Shown one piece after another: positions 19,105-38,190 of a stretch of DNA of 64,000 bases. The position numbers were made by a program, and so were the translations under genes. Location: the NCBI GenBank assembly GCA_021730945.1, contig JAKFYH010000007.1, positions 1 through 64,000 on the forward strand, read 5' to 3'. This DNA comes from Acidobacteriota bacterium. Lineage in GTDB: Bacteria; Acidobacteriota; Vicinamibacteria; Vicinamibacterales; UBA2999. Under the pieces are notes generated by a model. It was not told the origin of the DNA. It was given only the letters and a program-made list of their open reading frames with translations, and did no database searches. Position 1 is the stretch's first letter. Each line of letters begins with the position of its first letter.

Positions 19105-20234
19105 TTTCCGAATGCCGCGAGCGTATGGCGAATGACGTTGACCGCTTTCCAATATTCATCGAGCGGCAGGTGCTCGTTCGGCGTGTGATCGAGCGCGCTG
19201 TCGCCAGGCCCGTAGGCGACAATCGGGCACTTCCACCCTGGCGCCACCACGTTCATGTCGCTCGTGCCGGTCTTCAGCACGAAGCCTAAGGATGCAGCGG
19301 GATCTTCGGTCCTGACGCCGGCGAGAAAGCTGCGGACCAGCGGGTTGTTGCGGTCGCCGCGCCACGCGCGTTCCTCGCCCCTGAAGTGAAACTCAAAACG
19401 GGTGTGGCCGTCCCGCAGGTGGGCGAGCGGCCACGCGCGCAGGCCGGCCATCAGCGCCGCGGCATCAAAGCCCACAGGCAGGCGCCAGGCAAACTGCGCC
19501 TCGACCAGGTCGTGCATCTCGGTGTTGGTCGAGGTGACGAATCGGCGCAGGCTGGGGCTGAGCTGATCGAAAGCCTTGTCCTTGCCCCGATTGTGGGCAG
19601 CGGCCTGGGCGGTGACCCAGTTCCACAGGTCGACCACCACAGAAGCGACGCTGGCGTCTGGTCCGGCAGTGTGCGCCATCGGCTGATCGGCGGTCAGGTC
19701 GAGCAGCAACCGCCCCTTGTAGCCCAGCGTGACCCGGTTCCAATGGCTGGGCTCGCCAATGATGCACGCGTGCGGAATGGGTTCGGTCACCCCGTCGAAC
19801 CGCGCGGCAATGAAGCGCGCGCCCTTACTGGTGGCCGCTTCCTCTTCGACCGCGCCGACGACGACCACGCGCAGGCCCGCGGCGCGGGCGGCGGCCGATC
19901 CAAAGCGCGCAGCGCCGCAGACGAAACTCGCCAGCGGGCCCTTGGCGTCGACACTGCCGCGGCCGTACAGCAGATCGCCGCCGGCCGACGCCTCGATCCG
20001 CACCGGGATATTGCCAGGTACGGTATCGATATGGCCGAGCAGAACGATGGTGCGCGGCGCCGACGGATCGCCCAGTTCGCCGACGGCGTTGCCGGCGCCA
20101 TCGACGAACGCGCGATCGTAGCCGTTGGCGCGCATCTGTTCCACCAGCCAGGCCGAGGCCGGCGCTTCCTGCCGGGACAGCGAGGGAATGGCCACCAGCC
20201 CGCGGATTAGCTCGACGGCGGCTGCGCGATCCAT
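19074..20234 (-). CDS. lysK: [LysW]-lysine/ornithine hydrolase LysK
   Basis: A 386-residue M20-fold cytoplasmic enzyme with no signal peptide. Zinc-site motifs are LGHIDTV (H68, D70), [10 protein letters not shown] and [11 protein letters not shown]. In the LysW pathway it performs the last step, releasing lysine (or ornithine) from the Glu tail of the LysW carrier protein. Its ATG shares one base with the lysJ stop (TGATG), which implies translational coupling. The open frame continues upstream in another frame of lysJ, but the LysK homology begins at this ATG. The assignment rests mainly on being in the lysWXYZJK run. Confidence 0.87.
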
Positions 20235-21424
20235 CAGTCGATGTCCGTGATGGCTTTGGCAATCGCCTGGACGCCAAAGTCGATCTCGCTCTCGGTGATG
20301 ACCAGGGGCGGCAGCAGCCGCAGCACGGTGGGGCCGGCCGGCAGGGCGATCACGCCGTGGGTCAGCATCAGGCTCTTGAGCACCGGGGCGACCTTGGTGC
20401 GCAGTTCGACCGCGATCATGAGGCCCAGGCCGCGGATGTCGCGCACCGCCGCCACGCCGTCGAGCGCGCTCCTGAGCGTGGTGCGCAGGTGGGCGCCGAG
20501 GACGGCGCTGCGCTTGATCAAGCCTTCGTCGCGGTAGGCGTGGATGGCGGCCAGTCCGGCCGCGCAGGCGATCGGCGAGCCACCGAAGGTGCTGCCGTGT
20601 GCCCCCTGGGTGAGCACGTCGCGAATCGCTTTCGTATAGGCGAACGCGCCCATCGGGAAGCCGCCGCCGAGGCCCTTTGCCAGGCACATGATGTCGGGCT
20701 CGATGCCGCTGTGCTCGACGGCAAACCACTTGCCGGTGCGGCCGAAGCCGGTCTGGATCTCGTCGACGATCAGCAGCGCGCCGCGTTCGCGGCACAGCCG
20801 CTGGGCGGTCTGCAGGAAGTCGGGTGTGCCGACATTGACGCCGCTTTCGCCCTGCACCACTTCAAGGATCACCGCCGCCGTCTGATCGGTAATCGCCTGG
20901 TCGAGCGCGGCCGCATCGTTGAACCGGACGTGGCTGGTCTCCAGCAGCGGGAGAAAGCCCTCGCGGTACTTCGGCTCCCAGGTGACCGACAGCGCGCCGA
21001 TGGTGCGGCCGTGAAAGCCCTTGGTGGTCGAGACAAAGGCCGGCCGCTTAGTGAACAGCCGCGCGAACTTCAGCGCGCCGTCGACCGCTTCGGCGCCGCT
21101 ATTGGCGAGGAACACGTGCGGCAGGTGCTTCGGCAGCACGTCCACCAACGCCTGTGCGAACTCGGCGCGAACGTCGTTATAGAGGTAGCTGGGACAGAGC
21201 ATCAGCGTCTCGGCCTGGCGGCTGATGGCCTCGACCACGCCGGGATGGCAGTGCCCCAGCATCGCCACGCCCTGGGCGGCACCCAGATCGAGGTACTTTT
21301 TGCCGTCCTCGTCGAACACCCACGATCCCTCGCCCCGCGTGATGACGACCTCTCCGCGCCGGGCGGTGGTGCCACCGAGAATGCGCTCTTCGGTTTCCGC
21401 TACAGATTTCATATCCAGGGCCAC
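20234..21424 (-). CDS. lysJ: [LysW]-aminoadipate/glutamate semialdehyde aminotransferase LysJ
   Basis: A 396-residue class III PLP aminotransferase (ArgD/LysJ group). The PLP lysine is K250 in [10 protein letters not shown], preceded by [25 protein letters not shown] binds the phosphate. In this context it transaminates the LysW-bound semialdehyde to the LysW-bound amine, using glutamate. ArgD proteins acting on acetylornithine look very similar, so the call depends on neighbouring lysW, lysX and lysK. lysK is translationally coupled downstream, while a 177-bp repeat-rich gap separates it from lysZ. Confidence 0.88.
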
Positions 21425-21446
21425 AGATTACACAGATTACGCAGAT
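21421..21446. repeat. CAGATTACA-type 9-mer repeat, left flank of cloverleaf
   Basis: The run CACAGATTA, CACAGATTA, CGCAGATGG belongs to the same family as the inner part of the 42-bp array. It faces an inverted counterpart at 21556-21586, so the two flank the cloverleaf as terminal inverted repeats. Confidence 0.6.
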
Positions 21447-21459
21447 GGAAACGAACGGC

Positions 21460-21545
21460 TGACCGGCGGCCGGCCGCGAAGCGGCCGGGCCGGGAGCATG
21501 GTGGACCATGCTCCCGTGCCGCGGCTACGCCGCGGTCGCCGGTCA
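21460..21545. repeat. Three-armed cloverleaf inverted repeat
   Basis: A 9-bp closing stem (TGACCGGCG at 21460-21468 with CGCCGGTCA at 21537-21545) encloses three perfect hairpins. These are CGGCCGC-GAA-GCGGCCG (21471-21487), an 11-bp stem CGGGAGCATGG/CCATGCTCCCG with TGGA loop (21491-21516), and CCGCGGC-TAC-GCCGCGG (21519-21535). It lies between lysZ and lysJ and is flanked by inverted 9-mer repeats. Confidence 0.8.
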
Positions 21546-21555
21546 TCAGCATCCG

Positions 21556-21586
21556 TGTCATCTGCGTCATCTGCGTCATCTGCGGC
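21556..21586. repeat. CATCTGCGT-type 9-mer repeat, right flank of cloverleaf
   Basis: Three tandem copies of (G)TCATCTGCG run in the opposite orientation to the element at 21421-21446. They end about 16 bp before the lysZ stop codon. Confidence 0.65.
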
Positions 21587-21601
21587 TCTGAGCTATCTGA
21601 G

Positions 21602-22405
21602 TTAGAAAATCTGCGTGCCGGAACCGGCCAGCGCGCGCGAAATGGGTTGGTCGACGCGGCCGTCGGCGAAGATCACCTTGCCGACGCCCTCGGCGATGGC
21701 CTCGACGGCGCCCATGACCTTCTTCTTCATGCGCCCTTCGGCGAACTGCATGAACTGATCCGCCTTGGCCTTGGGAATCTCGGCAATCAAGGTCGATTCG
21801 TCGGGGAAATTCTTCAGCAGGCCGACCTGGTCGGTCAGGATGACGAGCGCCTCGGCGTTGAAGGCGCCGGCCACCATGGCCGCGGCGCGGTCGCCATCCA
21901 CGTTGATGGCTTCGCCGGCGGTTGATGAACCCGGCGGCGTCAGGACGGGGAAGTAGCCGGCTGCGATCAGCGTCTTCAGCAAGTCGGCGTTGACCTTCTC
22001 AACCGTGCCGGTCCAGTCATCGCGCAGCACCATCCGGCGGCCATCGACGCGAATCCGCAGCGTGTCCTTGCGCGTGCCCTCGAAAATGCGGCCGTCGAGG
22101 CCCGACAGGCCGACGGCGTTGACGCCCTTCAACTGCAGCTTCTCGACCCACATCTTGTTGAGTTGGCCGCAGTAGACCATCTCGAAGATCTCCAGCGTTC
22201 GGCGATCGGTGCGGCGGCTGGTGTGGCCGGTCTCGCTGGTCACAAACTGCGCGGGGTGCCCGAGCGCCTCGGCCACCGCGTTGGTGGTCTGCGCCCCGCC
22301 GTGTACCAGCAGCAGTTCAGTGCCCCTGGCGCGCAGAGAGACGATGTCGGCGACCACCGCGTCGATGTTGAGGGATGTGCCGCCGCCGACTTTCACAACG
22401 ATCAT
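21602..22405 (-). CDS. lysZ: [LysW]-aminoadipate/glutamate kinase LysZ
   Basis: A 267-residue amino-acid kinase of the acetylglutamate kinase (ArgB) fold. It opens with VVKVGGG and has the substrate loop LLVHGG, plus a nucleotide-binding C-half (VILTDQVGLL). In the LysW system it phosphorylates the side-chain carboxylate of the amino acid tethered to LysW. Archaeal- and Thermus-type LysZ enzymes have this length, while typical ArgB is a little longer. It lies between lysY and the cloverleaf region. A repeat copy occupies the 39-bp gap to lysY. Confidence 0.87.
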   Translation of the reverse strand: MIVVKVGGGTSLNIDAVVADIVSLRARGTELLLVHGGAQTTNAVAEALGHPAQFVTSETGHTSRRTDRRTLEIFEMVYCGQLNKMWVEKLQLKGVNAVGLSGLDGRIFEGTRKDTLRIRVDGRRMVLRDDWTGTVEKVNADLLKTLIAAGYFPVLTPPGSSTAGEAINVDGDRAAAMVAGAFNAEALVILTDQVGLLKNFPDESTLIAEIPKAKADQFMQFAEGRMKKKVMGAVEAIAEGVGKVIFADGRVDQPISRALAGSGTQIF

Positions 22406-22423
22406 TTCAGCACCACGAAACTC

Positions 22424-22444
22424 AAAAGGAGATCAGGAGTCCTG

Positions 22445-22446
<2 letters not shown>
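22424..22446. repeat. AGGAGATCAGGAG-family repeat, half copy
   Basis: AAAAGGAGATCAGGAG followed by TCCTGTT lies in the 39-bp gap between lysY and lysZ and overlaps the lysY stop codon. It could also supply a Shine-Dalgarno-like AGGAG on the plus strand, where no gene starts. Confidence 0.5.
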
Positions 22447-23500
<1,054 letters not shown>

Positions 23501-23506
23501 AGTAGA

Positions 23507-23580
23507 TGATCTGGTGATCTGGTGATCTCGTGAGTTGGTGATTTGTGATCGCTGATTTGATCAGCCGGTGATTTGGTGCA
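23507..23580. repeat. GGTGATCTG-type short tandem repeat
   Basis: Degenerate tandem GGTGATCTG/GGTGATTTG units (GATGATCTG, GTGATCTG, GTGATCTC, GTGATTTG) run through the upstream side of lysY. The tract is A+T-richer than its surroundings and non-coding. Confidence 0.6.
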
Positions 23581-23591
23581 AGCAAATCTAT

Positions 23592-23662
23592 GTTTAATCT
23601 GTGTCTAATCTGCGGCTGTCTAAGTCTGCGGCTGTCTAATCTGCGGCTGTCTAATCTGCGGC
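23592..23662. repeat. 15-bp tandem repeat GTCTAATCTGCGGCT
   Basis: About four copies of GTCTAATCTGCGGCT (one with an extra G) end at the lysX stop codon, preceded by a variant reading TTTAATCTGTGTC. It belongs to the ATCTGCG 9-mer family. The repeats lie between lysX and lysY. Confidence 0.75.
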
Positions 23663-24646
23663 CTACGCTGACGCCCCGTCGGCCAGTGAAATCGACGCCA
23701 TCTGCGGCCCGTCGTCTGTCCAGCCATTAGCGGCGTTCCAGCCGTTCTTCGCCACGTCAAGGCAGAAGTCCACCATGCGCTCGGGGATGTTCACGTTGGT
23801 CGGGGCAATGCTGTTGCGGAACTCCATCGTGTAGTTCACTTCATTCACCAGCAGGCCGCGGTCGGGATCCTCGAACAGGTCGAGCGCCACCACGCCGCCG
23901 CCGCACGCCTTGGCGGCGCGGGTGCAGATGTCGGCGATTTCCGGCGTCACCGGGCAGTTGCTCGACGAGCCGCCGCGGGCGGTGTTGGTGATCCAGTTGG
24001 GCGAGGTGCGGTAGATCGCGCAAATCGTCTCCGCGCCCACCTGGAAGGCGCGAATATCGCGGCCCGGCTTCTTGATGTATTCCTGGATGTAGAAAATGCT
24101 GTGGTGATAGCTGCCGAGCGTTTCCTTGTGCTCGAGAATGGTTTCGGCGGCGTCGCGGTCGTTCACCTTGCTCAGCAGCCGGCCCCACGAACCGACGGTT
24201 GGCTTCAGCACCGCCGGGTAGCCTAGCCGTTCGATCGCCTCAATCGCGCTCTCGGCGGTATAGGCCACGAGCGCCTTGGGCTGTGGCACGCCGGCCGCGG
24301 CCAGCGCGCTGGTGGTCATCAGCTTGTTGCCGCAGATGTCGGCACAAAGCGCGGTGTTCACCGTCTTGACGCCCTGGTCGTTCAGGATCTTGAGGCTGTA
24401 AAGCGCGCGGCTGTGGTTGATGCAGCGCTCGACGATGACGTCGTAGTCCTTGAAGGGGTGGTTGCCGACGTCGGTGATGTCGAAAATCAGCTTCTGGTCG
24501 TCGATCAGATCCAGCGAGATGCCGCGGCGTTCGAACGCCTCGAACAGCAGCTTCTCTTCCACCCGCACGCGGCTGTAGAGGACGCCGACCTTCACGCGAC
24601 CGGGGCCCCCGGCACGCGGACTTTGCGTGCTGGGGTGGCTACTCAC
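23663..24646 (-). CDS. lysX: LysW-amino acid ligase LysX (ATP-grasp)
   Basis: A 327-residue RimK-type ATP-grasp ligase. The diagnostic [10 protein letters not shown] opening lies at about 24-33, with ATP-grasp elements such as [11 protein letters not shown] and Mg-binding [12 protein letters not shown]. It joins the alpha-amino group of aminoadipate (or glutamate) to the C-terminal Glu of LysW. GTG 24646 overlaps the lysW stop by 8 bases and has GGAGG about 12-18 nt upstream. A later GTG at 24595 would give the usual short N-terminus, so the start is uncertain. I cannot separate AAA-specific from Glu-specific members by eye. Confidence 0.88.
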
Positions 24647-31948: not shown

Positions 31949-33322
31949 GTGTCCGCCAGACTACGCGCACAGTTGATTTGGCGTGGGGCGGCGCCCACGC
32001 TCGTGCCGACGCCGGAAGAGCCCGATTTCGCCGATGCCGTTGCGCCCCGCGAGCGGGCCATCGCGTTCCTGACTATCGGCTCCGAAATCGAGCACGCGCT
32101 GATGGTGCAGTACCTCTACGCAGCGTACTCGCTGAACGACGATCAGGAAACCGACACGCGGCGGGCGCTGGTGAAGAAGTGGAAGGCGGCCATCCTGGAG
32201 GTGGCCCGCGAGGAGATGGGCCACCTGGCCACCGTCCAGAACCTGCTCACGCTCATCGGCGGCCCCTTGTGTTTCGAACGCGAGGACTACCCGATCGTGG
32301 ACCCTGGCCTGTGGCCCTTTCCCTTTCAGCTGGAGGCCCTGACCAAGGACTCCCTGGCCAAGTACGTGCTGGCGGAGATGCCCTCCAGTGAGGTGCTGGC
32401 CAAGCTGAAACTGACCGACGAGACCAACGCGATCAAGCAGCGGCTGCAGGTCAACGACGGCCTCTCGGTCCATCGCGTCGGCGCCTTGTACCAGCAGATC
32501 CTGAACCTGTTCACGGCCGGACCGATGATCCAGGGACCCCAGCCGGGCGGCGCCACGCCGGCGCCGTTTGTGGCCACGGTCGACATCCAGGCCGACAGCC
32601 TGCCGTATCAGGCCAGTGCCGGTGCCTGGGCGCTCGGCTACCAGGACATCCTGGTCGAAACCGCCAGTGACCGGACGAGCGCGCTGGCCGCGCTCCAGAA
32701 AATATCGGCGCAGGGTGAAGGGCCCATCAGCACGACTGACGCCAATGCCAAGCAGGAGTATGAGGGATCGCACTTCCGCCGGTTCCTCGACATCTACCGC
32801 GAGTTCCCCGAGCCGGCGGACTGGACTCCGGCGCGGCCGGTGGCGACCAATCCCTCGACCCGGCCGGGAGTCGTCGACCCGGCACGCTGCATCGACGGCA
32901 TCGCCTCGCCGTGGGCGGCACTGGCCAACCTGCGCTACCGGATGTTGCTGCTGTATCTCGAGCACTCGTTCTGCATCGACTCGGGCCATGGGTCGCAAAC
33001 CCGATCGCCGCGCGGCGCGCTGGTGTCGTGGGCCTTTGGCGAGATGTACAACCTGCGGTCACTGTCCGAGATCCTGATGCGGCTGCCGCTCGCACCCGGC
33101 AGCGCCCTGATGGCCGGCCCGCCGTTCGAAATGCCGTACACGCTGTCGCTGCCGACGCGGGCCGTGAACCGCTGGCGCGCTCACCGCGATCTGGTGATGG
33201 CCGCCGGCGCGCTGATCGATCAGCTGCTGGTGCCCGGCCAGCCGCAGGCTGCCTACTTGCGGGCACTGCGGGCGGCCGACCAGACCGCCTTGGACCAGAT
33301 CAACGTCTTGATCGGAGCGTGA
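31949..33322 (+). CDS. Ferritin-like protein (iminophenyl-pyruvate dimer synthase domain family)
   Basis: A 457-residue protein whose N-terminal half carries a ferritin-like bundle. The segments EIEHALMVQYLYAAYSL (about 46-62) and EVAREEMGHLATVQNLL (about 84-100) supply carboxylate/His iron ligands such as E48, E88 and H92. The match is to the family found in VioB, RebD and StaD, which couple amino-acid-derived imines in bisindole synthesis, though VioB itself is much longer. No signal peptide. It starts at GTG 31949 after an AAGGGGGAAGG ribosome site and is 3 bp from the LodA-like gene. Iron binding and imine chemistry are inferred. Confidence 0.75.
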   Translation: MSARLRAQLIWRGAAPTLVPTPEEPDFADAVAPRERAIAFLTIGSEIEHALMVQYLYAAYSLNDDQETDTRRALVKKWKAAILEVAREEMGHLATVQNLLTLIGGPLCFEREDYPIVDPGLWPFPFQLEALTKDSLAKYVLAEMPSSEVLAKLKLTDETNAIKQRLQVNDGLSVHRVGALYQQILNLFTAGPMIQGPQPGGATPAPFVATVDIQADSLPYQASAGAWALGYQDILVETASDRTSALAALQKISAQGEGPISTTDANAKQEYEGSHFRRFLDIYREFPEPADWTPARPVATNPSTRPGVVDPARCIDGIASPWAALANLRYRMLLLYLEHSFCIDSGHGSQTRSPRGALVSWAFGEMYNLRSLSEILMRLPLAPGSALMAGPPFEMPYTLSLPTRAVNRWRAHRDLVMAAGALIDQLLVPGQPQAAYLRALRAADQTALDQINVLIGA

Positions 33323-33325
33323 CCC

Positions 33326-35485
33326 ATGGCCATCACTGAGATTCGCTTGTTGCCGCCTCTGGCCCTGGCTCGCCTCGGTTCGTCGCCCGAGCCGCTCGAT
33401 AACTATGACCTCGCCGTTCCCGACGCGGTGGCCCCGCGGGCAATTGTGCCGGCGCCTTCACTGCGGCTCGACACCGACGGCCACCTCACGGTCACCCAGG
33501 GCGAAGGGCCGGTAGAGTTTCGCGATCACGAGGGCCGGATCAAACCTGTCGCCCCCTTCTTCGAACTATGGGCGAAAGTGGATGCCGCGGGCGAGTGGGT
33601 GCCAGTGACTGAAGCGCTGCTCAGCGCGAACGGGTTGTCGGTGGCCAGCGTCAAGTGGTCGGCGCACCTCGGCAACCACAAGCTTCATCGCCGCACCAAC
33701 GATCCGAACGATTGCATTGAAGCGGTCGTCGCGCCCTTCAGCGATCACGCGGCCCACGCGGTGGAGGGTGCCTGCGGGAACTTCCTGGACGGTGCCACGC
33801 TGCCGCTTGGGCAGGTGCAGTTCGCGCGGCCCAGCCCGGACCATCCCGGGCTGCGGCTCCGTTTTACCCCCGCCCACGGCAAGGTCTATGGTGCCCACTC
33901 CGCCGTGCCCGACCCCGACATCGTCAAGGCGATCTACGACTCCGCCAAGGGCGGGTGGCGTGGCTACCGCGAGACCAACGATACGCCTCCGAATAATTAC
34001 GCCGGACGGCGCCTCACCAACCCGGCCGACATCTTTGCCGGCTACGACGATGACGTGGACCACATCAGCTACGGCTATGTCGATGACGAGTGCGACGGCA
34101 TCATTACGGCGTCGCTCGAAGGCCCCGGCGTCAATCTGCAGTGCTTCGCGCGCGTAGCGGCCGGGCCGCCGGCGTTCGCGCCCGACAGCAAGCCGGTTCG
34201 CACGGTCGCTGACGAACTTGAGCAGGCGCTGCTCGGGCCGCAGGCCGACACGGTCGCCTCCGAAGAGGAAGTGGCGGCGGTCAGCGACATCGTGCGCCGG
34301 GCGCTCGAGACCGTGCGGCTGATGAACACCGGCCAGTTGAACCAGGGCGGCACCACCCGCGGTGTGGGCATGGCGCGCATGGACATCCTTGACGTGAACC
34401 GGAAGTCCGACCCGATCTTCGAGCCGATGGTGGCCGAGGCGCTGGCCATTCGCGCGCGGCACGAACGGGTGCTGCTGGCGCTTGAGAGCGGCTCGCTCAC
34501 CTGGTTCGCCCGCATCCTCCGCGAGTACGACCAGGTTGGCGATCTGACCGACGAGGGACGCCGCCGCATGCCGGGCATGATGCGCAACGCCGATGGCCGG
34601 CACCTGGCGCTGACCCGGCGCCAGGTCAGCAAGATCAGGGCGGCCGCCAATTACCTGGTGACCGGCCGCACCGGGCCGGCGGCTGACGCGGCGCCGGGTG
34701 GCGTGCGGCCGCTCAATTTGTCGGCGCAACTCGATTACCGCGCCCAGGGCAATCCGCCCAACAGCCGTCCCGACACCGCCATCTCCAACGCGTTTCCCGG
34801 CTTGGAGATGGATTTTCGCAACGTCTGGAAACGGTTGCTCGCGGGCGTGGTGCTGCACGAATCGCTGAACTTCGTGCTCGAGACTGAGATGGATGAACTG
34901 GCGCCGCTGAAGGGCATGTTCATCATGCAAATCGCCGGCGTCGAGCTGACCGCGCCGGTCACCGGCCCCGACGCCAATGGCGTGGTCGGGCCGCTCAAAG
35001 ACGCCTACGGCAACGACCACATGGCGCTTGAATGGTCCAATGTTCTGGCCGACATCGTCCACCAGCATGCGGGCCAGCCGGTGCACTGCGTGTTCCAGTC
35101 GATGGACGGTGCCCAGCGGATCGAACGCGACCTGACGGTGCGACCGTTCTTCGAGAAGGACTCGGCGGTAATCGCGCGGGCGCTGGTCGAACCGGGTGCG
35201 CTCACGCAGAGCTTGTGCGCGCCGTGGCAGAACGACTATCGCGAGTGTTCCTGTTTCTATTGGGCCGCCAATCGGCCCGACTACGTTAATGTCGAGCCGC
35301 GCGCGGATGGCGCCAGCAGCGGCAACAACTGGATGCAGAAGGATCGGACGTCGAGCACGCCGGCCGTCTACATCAACGACGACTGGCAGGATGACCGCCT
35401 CCTGTCGCATACCGATCTGGTGCGGGACTGGGAGAAGGCGTTGCGCTTCATCATCGCGAACAAGGACGAACCGCCGGTCGTCTGA
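33326..35485 (+). CDS. LodA-like putative CTQ-dependent amino-acid oxidase
   Basis: A 719-residue protein of the LodA/GoxA type. The N-terminus (LPPLALARLGSSPE) matches the family opening. Near the C-terminus, APWQNDYRECSCFYWAANRP (632-651) corresponds to the cofactor region. D637 and C641 have the Asp-x3-Cys spacing of D512/C516 in LodA and D547/C551 in GoxA, and W646 is the likely tryptophylquinone Trp. By family it oxidatively deaminates an amino acid, giving ammonia and peroxide. The Cys-Trp spacing is unusually short (5 residues). No signal peptide; it is flanked by two maturation genes. The substrate is unknown. Confidence 0.78.
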   Translation: MAITEIRLLPPLALARLGSSPEPLDNYDLAVPDAVAPRAIVPAPSLRLDTDGHLTVTQGEGPVEFRDHEGRIKPVAPFFELWAKVDAAGEWVPVTEALLSANGLSVASVKWSAHLGNHKLHRRTNDPNDCIEAVVAPFSDHAAHAVEGACGNFLDGATLPLGQVQFARPSPDHPGLRLRFTPAHGKVYGAHSAVPDPDIVKAIYDSAKGGWRGYRETNDTPPNNYAGRRLTNPADIFAGYDDDVDHISYGYVDDECDGIITASLEGPGVNLQCFARVAAGPPAFAPDSKPVRTVADELEQALLGPQADTVASEEEVAAVSDIVRRALETVRLMNTGQLNQGGTTRGVGMARMDILDVNRKSDPIFEPMVAEALAIRARHERVLLALESGSLTWFARILREYDQVGDLTDEGRRRMPGMMRNADGRHLALTRRQVSKIRAAANYLVTGRTGPAADAAPGGVRPLNLSAQLDYRAQGNPPNSRPDTAISNAFPGLEMDFRNVWKRLLAGVVLHESLNFVLETEMDELAPLKGMFIMQIAGVELTAPVTGPDANGVVGPLKDAYGNDHMALEWSNVLADIVHQHAGQPVHCVFQSMDGAQRIERDLTVRPFFEKDSAVIARALVEPGALTQSLCAPWQNDYRECSCFYWAANRPDYVNVEPRADGASSGNNWMQKDRTSSTPAVYINDDWQDDRLLSHTDLVRDWEKALRFIIANKDEPPVV

Positions 35486-35492
35486 GGTCACG

Positions 35493-36833
35493 ATGCTGAT
35501 TCAAATCGCCGGCCTGACGTCTCGCCCCCAGCCTGCGCCAGAGCCGGAACTGGTACGCCAGTCGCACGTGTTCCAATCCGGCCAGGCCGAACATGTCCTG
35601 GTGGTCGACGGCAGCCGGATCTATGCCATCGACGGGGCGACGGCGGAGGAGCTCCGCCTGGACCCCGGCAACGCCGGTCACCGGCTCGAGGCACTCGGCT
35701 TGCTCGATCCATTGGCCCGGCGCATCACCGACGTGCCGCCGGTGTCGATGCCCGTGCGTGCGTTGTCGCTGGCGGTCGCGCAAAAGTGCAATCTGGCCTG
35801 CACCTATTGTTATGCCCAGGAGGGCAGCTTCGGCGCCGAACCGCGCAACATGGATCGCGATGCTGCGCTGCGGGCCATCGAGTTGCTGTTCCAGGGGGCG
35901 GCACCGGGCGAACGCGTCACGTTGGCGTTCCTCGGCGGCGAGCCGCTGATAAACCGCGCGCTGGTGCGCGAGTGCACCGATTGGGCTGTCGCCATCGGAC
36001 AGCGCACGTCCGTGCTTGCGCAGTTCTCCATCACCACCAATGGCACGCTCATCACCGAAGACGATGGCCGGTTCTTCGAGCAGCATGGCTTTGCGGTCAC
36101 CATCAGTGTTGACGGTGTGGGCGACGATCACGATCGCCAGCGGCCCTTTCGCGGGGGGCAGGGGAGCTTCACCCGCGTCATCGAGCGGGTGCAGCCGCTG
36201 CTGGCCATGCAGCACCGCATGCAGGTGTCGGCCCGGGTCACGGTGACGCCCGGCAACCTGCATCTGCGCGCCACTCTCGATGATTTGCTCGGGCGCGGTT
36301 TTCACAGCGCCGGCTTTACGCCCATGCTGCACGCGCCATCGGGCCGCGGCGACATGCACGAGGCGGCCCTCGCGGACATGCTGGCGCAGATGATCGAGTG
36401 CGGGGGCGAGTTCGAGCGCCGGACGGCGGCCGGCCAGCGCTATGCCTTCGCCAATCTCGCCACCGCGCTGCAGGAGATTCACAAGGGCACGCACCGGCCG
36501 TATCCGTGCGGCGCCGGCGGCGGGTACTTCGGCGTCGGCGCTGATGGCGGGCTCTATACCTGTCACCGGTTCGTTGAAGACGAGGGCGCGCGGTTTGGCG
36601 ATGTCTGGAACGGTGTTGACCCTGTGGTGCAGGCGCGCTGGCTGGCCGAACGGCACGTTCATACCCAGTCCCCGTGCTCGGGATGCTGGGCGCGCTACCT
36701 GTGCGGTGGCGGCTGCCACCATGACGTGATTCGCCGGGGACGCCCGGCGTGCGACTACATTCGAGGCTGGCTCGACTACAGCCTGAAGGCGTACGTCCGG
36801 CTGCTGGCATCGACACCGGAGTACTTTGGTTAG
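35493..36833 (+). CDS. Radical SAM/SPASM peptide-modifying enzyme (QhpD/PeaB-like)
   Basis: A 446-residue protein. The radical SAM cluster motif is C99-x3-C103-x2-C106 (CNLACTYC), followed by FLGGEPL and TTNGT. The C-terminal SPASM region has seven cysteines (C339, C357, C395, C398, C404, C408, C420) suited to two extra 4Fe-4S clusters. An N-terminal 90-residue domain resembles a peptide-recognition domain. By family it installs thioether or other cross-links in a peptide; QhpD does this for the CTQ subunit of amine dehydrogenase. ATG 35493 has GAGG 5 nt before it and is 7 bp from the LodA-like stop. The likely substrate is the LodA-like protein. Confidence 0.85.
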   Translation: MLIQIAGLTSRPQPAPEPELVRQSHVFQSGQAEHVLVVDGSRIYAIDGATAEELRLDPGNAGHRLEALGLLDPLARRITDVPPVSMPVRALSLAVAQKCNLACTYCYAQEGSFGAEPRNMDRDAALRAIELLFQGAAPGERVTLAFLGGEPLINRALVRECTDWAVAIGQRTSVLAQFSITTNGTLITEDDGRFFEQHGFAVTISVDGVGDDHDRQRPFRGGQGSFTRVIERVQPLLAMQHRMQVSARVTVTPGNLHLRATLDDLLGRGFHSAGFTPMLHAPSGRGDMHEAALADMLAQMIECGGEFERRTAAGQRYAFANLATALQEIHKGTHRPYPCGAGGGYFGVGADGGLYTCHRFVEDEGARFGDVWNGVDPVVQARWLAERHVHTQSPCSGCWARYLCGGGCHHDVIRRGRPACDYIRGWLDYSLKAYVRLLASTPEYFG

Positions 36834-38190
36834 CCTCACTGCCGACGTCTGCGTGGTCGGCGGCGGACCCGCGGGGGCGGCGCTGGCGATCAGGCTCGCG
36901 CAGTTGGGCCGCCGGGTCGTGGTGGTGGAGAAGGCCGGCTTTCCCCGGCCCCACCTGGGCGAGTCGCTGACCGCCGGAGTCCGGCCCTTGCTCGAGTTGC
37001 TCGGGATGCAGGCAGCAATCGACGCGGGGGGCTTCATCGCATCACCGGGCGCCACGGCCGCGTGGGCCGGCGAGCAACGCCACTACCGCGTGCCGGGCGG
37101 GTCCGGACTGCAGGTCGACCGCGCACGCTTTGACGCCTTGCTTCTCGGCCGCGCCGCGGTGATGCCCGGCGTCACCGTGTGCCAACCGGCGGTGCCCGTG
37201 GATCGGGAGTGGACTGATGGCGAGTGGAGGGTGCGGTTGGATACCGGGGCGGTGATCCGGGCCCGATACCTGGCCGACGCCGCCGGCCGTTCACGGTTTC
37301 TCCCCGGAGCCAAGCGGGCGATTGGCGCGGCGACCCTCGCCCTTTGTGCCTACTGGACGGATACCGCCAAGGGCGAGGATAGCGACACGCTGATCGAAGC
37401 CGGGCCGGCCGGGTGGTTCTGGGGCGCGCCGGTGCCTGGGGGCTTGTTCAACGCCACGGTGTTTGTCGATGCCGGGCCGGTCGCGGACTACGAGCAGTTG
37501 ATCAGCTGTTCGCGCTTGTTGCGTCCGCGCCTGGAGCGCGCCGTCCGGCAGAGCGAGATTCGCGTGTGCGACGCCACGGCGTACGAAGACCTGTCGCCGG
37601 TGACCTTCTGCTCGATCAAGGTGGGCGACGCGGCGCTCTCGATCGATCCGTTGTCCTCGCAAGGCGTGCAGGCGGCTATCGGCACCGCTGTGCATGCCGC
37701 GGTGGTCCTCAATACGATGTGCGAGCGGCCGGGCGACACCGAATTGGCCATGGGGTTCTATCGGTCCCGACTGCGGCACGCGGCTTCGTATCACGCCGCG
37801 GCCGCCGCGAGCCAGTACGGTCGGCACCTGGCGGCAGGGGGCGGCGAGTTCTGGCGGCGGCGGGCAACGCCGGTGCCGCTCGAACCGCCGAGGGCGAGCC
37901 TCAGCCCCACCGCCGTTGTCCATGTGCCGGCCGCCGTGCAGTTCGATCGCGTGGCGGTGGCCGTGGCCGACCGGGTCGCCGGCATGGGCGGTGTCAGGGC
38001 GCACGGTCGGGATTACGCGTTCGTGAACGGTGATGTGCCGATTGCGCCCTTGCTGCGGGAAATCGACGGCCCGATGGCCGCGACGGACGTCGTGCGGCGG
38101 TGGTCGCGAACAATGCATGCGAGCGATGCCTTCCGCATCCTGGCGTGGGCGTGGTCCGAGCGTCTCGTCGACAGCCCGGCGGTCGCCTGA
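36826..38190 (+). CDS. LodB/QhpG-like FAD-dependent oxidoreductase
   Basis: A 454-residue flavoprotein of the tryptophan-halogenase-like group. It shows VGGGPAG at 11-17, the FAD pyrophosphate motif, then HLGESLTAGVRPLLE, WFWGAPVPGG (compare the WxWxIP motif of flavin halogenases, with Ala for Ile) and DPLSSQGVQAA. In LodA operons a protein of this family (LodB) oxidises the Trp to make CTQ, and QhpG does so for amine dehydrogenase, so maturation is preferred over halogenation. It starts at TTG 36826, overlapping the radical SAM gene by 8 bases. It ends the operon. Confidence 0.8.
   Translation: MVSLTADVCVVGGGPAGAALAIRLAQLGRRVVVVEKAGFPRPHLGESLTAGVRPLLELLGMQAAIDAGGFIASPGATAAWAGEQRHYRVPGGSGLQVDRARFDALLLGRAAVMPGVTVCQPAVPVDREWTDGEWRVRLDTGAVIRARYLADAAGRSRFLPGAKRAIGAATLALCAYWTDTAKGEDSDTLIEAGPAGWFWGAPVPGGLFNATVFVDAGPVADYEQLISCSRLLRPRLERAVRQSEIRVCDATAYEDLSPVTFCSIKVGDAALSIDPLSSQGVQAAIGTAVHAAVVLNTMCERPGDTELAMGFYRSRLRHAASYHAAAAASQYGRHLAAGGGEFWRRRATPVPLEPPRASLSPTAVVHVPAAVQFDRVAVAVADRVAGMGGVRAHGRDYAFVNGDVPIAPLLREIDGPMAATDVVRRWSRTMHASDAFRILAWAWSERLVDSPAVA

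Follow-up and report, generated by a model that had tools for sequence, protein, structure and literature searches.

The window analysed here, a 64,000-nucleotide stretch of DNA from an Acidobacteriota bacterium, carries a cassette of four genes that encode, in this order, a ferritin-like protein, a LodA-like protein, a QhpD-like radical SAM enzyme, and a QhpG-like flavoprotein. The ferritin-like protein (31949..33322, + strand) matches PF12902, a VioB-like family (Pfam, 3.5e-32), and also gives a partial VioB match (2.3e-14) that is far under the cut-off. The LodA-like protein (33326..35485, + strand) is 719 aa long and of a fused form, with matches to LodA_N (2.5e-05) and LodA_C (6.9e-05). 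It is followed by a radical SAM/SPASM enzyme (35493..36833, + strand; TIGR03906, 5.1e-89), which is predicted to make thioethers, and by the flavoprotein (36826..38190, + strand), a predicted Trp hydroxylase. RefSeq records give genes of this family the labels 'hypothetical protein', 'radical SAM protein', and 'tryptophan 7-halogenase'. On the - strand, at a distance of some 7 kb from the cassette, lie LysW-dependent lysine biosynthesis genes (20234-24646), including those for a [LysW]-aminoadipate kinase (21602-22405) and LysX (23663-24646), both identified by NCBIfam, as well as LysJ-like and LysY/ArgC-like ORFs assigned by reading the sequence only.

Recurrence of the cassette

Scanning a genome collection by C-domain alignment identified 207 stretches encoding relatives of the LodA-like protein, and the best 80 of the 207 were kept; these span Acidobacteriota, Verrucomicrobiota, Myxococcota, Actinomycetota, Bacteroidota, Pseudomonadota, Planctomycetota, and others. 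Together with three relatives from the phylum (L010-L012), they make up the 83 cassettes considered here. The LodA-like protein in recurring cassettes is either fused, as in the window, or, in many relatives, divided between separate N and C genes, and most cassettes have a ferritin-like gene upstream of it. PF12902 ferritin-like genes have also been noted next to fungal lodA genes (PMC4417212). A radical SAM gene was found within the fetched stretch in 80 of these 83 motif-selected or phylum cassettes. The three cassettes without an adjacent radical SAM gene come from two genomes, both of which hold the gene elsewhere, either some kilobases away on the same contig (the genome of L032 and L150) or in a third, complete cassette (the other genome). 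A distant subtype (L127, L128, L170, and L172) has an N gene, a radical SAM gene, and then a C-domain fused to the ferritin-like domain, with no clear QhpG-like flavoprotein gene beside them.

Because the peptide patterns used to find the 80 genome loci contain the motif itself, these loci represent a biased sample, and plasmid records retrieved by whole-protein tblastn were thus taken as the unbiased one. Among these, the radical SAM gene was present in all 12 of the loci that were checked for cassette genes, which had been chosen without the motif, and the motif was present in each of the 11 that bear a C-domain; two Nostoc loci agree with these plasmid loci in having both the radical SAM gene and the motif. 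As the class looks like one related group, this co-occurrence of residues and genes may reflect few independent events.

The C631-D652 cluster and the LodA fold

Within the LodA-like ORF, DNA positions 35216-35290 (+ strand) encode C631-A-P-W634-Q-N-D637-Y-R-E640-C641-S-C643-F-Y-W646-A-A-N-R-P-D652-Y-V-N; translation confirmed all of the residues and coordinates that the initial annotation had listed for this cluster of Cys, Asp, Glu, and Trp. The whole protein contains only 8 Cys and 12 Trp, and a 16-residue stretch with at least three Cys, at least two Trp, and at least two Asp or Glu arose 17 times in 20,000 whole-protein residue shuffles. We judged the cluster to be real on the stronger evidence of its invariance across relatives: C631 (35216..35218), D637 (35234..35236), C641 (35246..35248), C643 (35252..35254), W646 (35261..35263), and D652 (35279..35281), all on the + strand, are each identical in the 84 aligned class members (window included), and W646 is also kept in distant members. 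The C631-D652 cluster (35216-35281) is the defining feature of a widespread, unnamed family. Upstream of the cluster, P491-G492-L493-E494 (34796..34807, + strand), which by eye aligns with P13-G14-W15-E16 of QhpC and with the PGIE of LodA (CPGIE), is likewise invariant in the 84. In the window protein the two residues preceding this motif (489-490) are A-F, whereas 67 of 84 relatives have a Cys at position 489.

On the whole protein, LodA_N (24.8 bits, cut-off 26.3) and LodA_C (23.0 bits, cut-off 25.0) both fall just below their Pfam cut-offs, and LodA_C on the C-domain alone scores 25.1 bits against a cut-off of 25. An AlphaFold model of the 719-aa protein (mean pLDDT 84) matched GoxA and LodA at Z 16.4-19.0, compared with 7.0 for the next best match, with Foldseek E values down to 7.6e-12, and because only GoxA and LodA are matched strongly we regard the protein as LodA-fold. 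The model is unreliable at the CTQ site, with pLDDT <50 at residues 639-649, and the C-domain folded alone was no better there. The QHNDH gamma subunit fold was not among the matches listed for the C-domain model, a result that is neutral since the site is poorly modelled. A resemblance of the N-terminal part to the QHNDH alpha subunit (Z 5.0-5.9) was barely above common beta-sandwich matches (4.2) and was set aside.

Between E494 and the CTQ motif lies an insert of about 100 residues (residues 504-606; 34835..35143, + strand) that is PDZ-like in both models: matches of the C-domain model at Z 5-7 (VIA-align) were almost all PDZ domains, and Pfam gave no PDZ match for the insert. The distance from E494 to D637 is 137-180 residues in the class, as compared to 37-72 in ordinary LodA-likes, and the insert is specific to the radical SAM-linked LodA class; that it serves as a docking site for a maturase is our guess. 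A Cys inside the insert, C588 (35087-35089), is kept in 83 of 84 class members.

Ordinary LodA-like proteins from the same phylum provide a contrast at the site itself. The position of C631 is G, A, or V in all 10 of these, the position of C643 is Cys in none of the 10, and no related radical SAM gene was found near the LodA-like gene at any of the 10 loci. The initial annotation had singled out the five-residue spacing between C641 and W646 as an anomaly; as half of these 10 plain LodA-likes have the same spacing (with 8, 11, 16, 16, and 26 in the other five), it is ordinary, and the alignments point to C631 and C643, rather than the short spacing, as the special feature of the site. By contrast, the Asp-x3-Cys spacing attributed to the site was borne out, with D637 and C641 aligned with D512 and C516 of LodA (PWQAD512FFNC516) and with D678 and C682 of Pseudoalteromonas luteoviolacea GoxA (PWQSD678AASC). 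W646 was placed by motif alignment with ordinary LodA-likes, as the W of a W-[PA]-A-x-[RV]-P-[DN] motif that these proteins have in common with W43 of QhpC; W581 of LodA, the partner of C516, lay beyond the reach of every alignment. These alignments support the proposal that W646 is the CTQ tryptophan, with C641 as the predicted CTQ cysteine.

Correspondence with QhpC and its maturases

The QHNDH gamma subunit, QhpC, carries CTQ at C37-W43 beside three thioethers (PMC8172795; PMC7876137), namely C7-E16, C27-D33, and C41-D49 (PMC8172795), of which C27-D33 and C41-D49 are made by the radical SAM enzyme QhpD. Our reference QhpC was taken from a Nitrincola genome in which a class member also occurs; its agreement with 1JMX and 1JJU sets the residue numbering used here. 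In profile comparisons, QhpC C27, D33, C37, C41, W43, and D49 fall on C631, D637, C641, C643, W646, and D652, respectively, with both D49 and D652 at W+6. The QhpC profile and the class aligned in register at E 4e-5, and QhpC and ordinary LodA-likes did so at E 1e-6; in each case none of 100 column shuffles reached the observed value. Two of the three Cys-Asp/Glu pairs of QhpC (C27-D33 and C41-D49), as well as the CTQ pair, thus have matching positions in the window protein, and by alignment with QhpC the matching candidate acceptors are D637 and D652.

Along with these six residues, the window resembles the QhpC/QhpD/QhpG system in the PGxE motif upstream of the site and in its QhpD-like and QhpG-like cassette genes. 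Unlike QhpC, in which the site lies in a mature subunit of ~79 residues, the site here belongs to a LodA-fold protein that is 719 aa long and includes a PDZ-like insert. Further differences from QHNDH are the absence of QhpA and QhpB genes from the cassette, of a PF08992 (QhpC) match in the window protein at E 0.001 in Pfam, and of a counterpart to the third pair, C7-E16, in the window protein, where residues 489-490 are not Cys; in addition, the QhpC equivalent of the C641-C643 loop has two more residues, so that the ring geometry is not identical to that of QhpC. While the protein is like LodA and GoxA, the partners of LodB and GoxB, in its whole-protein fold, D-x3-C spacing, and tryptophan motif, it differs from them in the two extra Cys, the PDZ-like insert, the accompanying QhpD-like gene, a flavoprotein that resembles QhpG more than LodB, and in that the N and C halves are often encoded by separate genes.

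The window radical SAM enzyme contains the CX3CX2C and SPASM Cys common to QhpD (C99, C103, C106, C339, C357, C395, C398, C404, C408, and C420). It scores 299 bits on the QhpD model TIGR03906, under the curated cut-off of 453, and 255 bits on the PapB model, also under the cut-off; across the cassettes the corresponding ranges are 266-319 and 250-271 bits. PapB, a ranthipeptide maturase and QhpD homologue that also makes Cys-Asp thioethers (PMC8172795), with S-C-beta bonds in freyrasin, is a related radical SAM/SPASM enzyme; however, PapB acts on a small peptide, whereas the cassette enzymes score higher on QhpD and are linked to a large LodA-fold protein. A genuine qhp (QHNDH) operon encoding QhpC and QhpD (G000:C12:120201-120413; L139 and L151) is also present in the window's own genome, which hence has both CTQ systems; the true QhpD of this genome scores 578 bits on the QhpD model. 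In a tree, the cassette enzymes and the qhp enzymes form separate groups. As the cassette enzymes score under the QhpD cut-off, we regard them as a sister subfamily of QhpD, for which the type of bond could differ.

The substrate of QhpG is cross-linked QhpC, in which it dihydroxylates the CTQ Trp (PMC7876137). The window flavoprotein scores 238.4 bits on the QhpG model (NF049967), just missing the cut-off of 240, as compared to 121.5 bits on LodB and 118.6 on GoxB; the QhpG-like flavoprotein of the qhp operon in the same genome, at 191.3 bits, is likewise under the QhpG cut-off. A LodB-type control flavoprotein scored 248 bits on GoxB and 167 on QhpG, and in a tree the cassette flavoproteins group with QhpG, with the LodB-type proteins apart (support 100/99). 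Both the scores and the separate branch show that the partner flavoprotein is not of the LodB/GoxB type.

Proposed maturation and alternative explanations

We propose, with a probability of roughly 0.78, that the LodA-like protein of the window is a CTQ enzyme of the LodA fold whose maturation is carried out by Qhp-type machinery, and that it holds thioethers at C631-D637 and C643-D652 and CTQ at C641-W646. The covalent bonds, order of events, maturase roles, activity, and substrate that we infer would be as follows: the QhpD-like radical SAM enzyme would first build both thioethers, from C631 onto the methylene carbon of D637 and from C643 onto the methylene carbon of D652, W646 would then be dihydroxylated by the QhpG-like flavoprotein, and the quinone would next close onto C641 to give CTQ. 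The catalytic Asp, D637, would itself be held inside a thioether, and the finished enzyme would oxidise a primary amine or an amino acid via CTQ. That the site combines CTQ with Cys-Asp/Glu thioethers had been suggested in the initial annotation. The Cys-Asp part of this idea gained from the QhpD-like gene that follows and from the match of C631 and C643 to C27 and C41 of QhpC, and in the more exact form of putative C631-D637 and C643-D652 bonds it is strongly supported by context. The part concerning E640 did not hold up; this residue, replaced by G in L076 and L168 and by D in L011, was discarded as a candidate and is probably not a thioether acceptor.

A rival explanation, to which we give a small but appreciable probability, is a LodA-like CTQ enzyme of the ordinary kind: C631 and C643 would remain free thiols, form a disulfide, or bind a metal, and the radical SAM enzyme would act on another protein or site. 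LodA itself has a nearby Cys, C507 (D-5), that is one residue off the position of C631, and we found no report of a cross-link for it. However, C631 and C643 are invariant exactly where the radical SAM gene occurs, are absent from the 10 plain LodA-likes, and align with two QhpD target Cys of QhpC; a non-systematic look at the cassette also revealed no small precursor peptide gene. Somewhat less probable still is a cross-linked protein with a pattern other than that of QhpC, in which the radical SAM enzyme makes another bond (from Cys to Trp or Tyr, or one to E494 or to E640). The sister-subfamily status of the cassette enzymes and their almost equal scores on the PapB model are compatible with such a bond, as are the invariance of E494 and the common presence of a nearby Cys at position 489 in relatives. 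Against it, the C-x5-D arrangement and the Asp at W+6 reproduce the QhpC pairs, E640 varies, and the window protein lacks Cys at 489-490. It is very improbable that the CTQ tryptophan is another Trp, W669 or W687; W669 is kept in all 84 aligned class members, but it is F in L170, a plasmid-borne Streptomyces relative, and is not a column common to ordinary LodA-likes, whereas W646, which is never lost, belongs to the motif in which the proven W43 of QhpC is found. The identification of W646 as the cofactor Trp in the initial annotation is thus upheld by alignment.

CTQ families are usually kept apart, as the small, multiply cross-linked QHNDH gamma subunit and the large LodA/GoxA oxidases, and in the literature searched no Cys-Asp cross-links have been reported in the latter; nor did our search, which was mostly outside subscription journals, find a link between a LodA-like protein and a radical SAM enzyme. 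In the family described here the two cofactor-making systems appear to be joined, in a widespread and unannotated group. If matured by Qhp-type machinery, this enzyme would bring radical SAM chemistry to the LodA fold, would give a likely function to genes that carry the RefSeq labels listed above, and would allow the roles of Cys-Asp thioethers and of a cross-linked catalytic Asp to be tested against thioether-free LodA and GoxA. We also lean, by a modest degree, towards the view that the CTQ active-site modules of LodA/GoxA and of the QHNDH gamma subunit go back to a single ancestral one, and that this family is the surviving intermediate, a LodA-fold protein of ~80 kDa into which a radical SAM enzyme introduces two Cys-Asp thioethers, one of them via the catalytic Asp. 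In one Acidobacteria MAG (G408; L016, L055, and L149), only one of three LodA cassettes has a cassette-type radical SAM gene, which suggests that one maturase may serve several cassettes.
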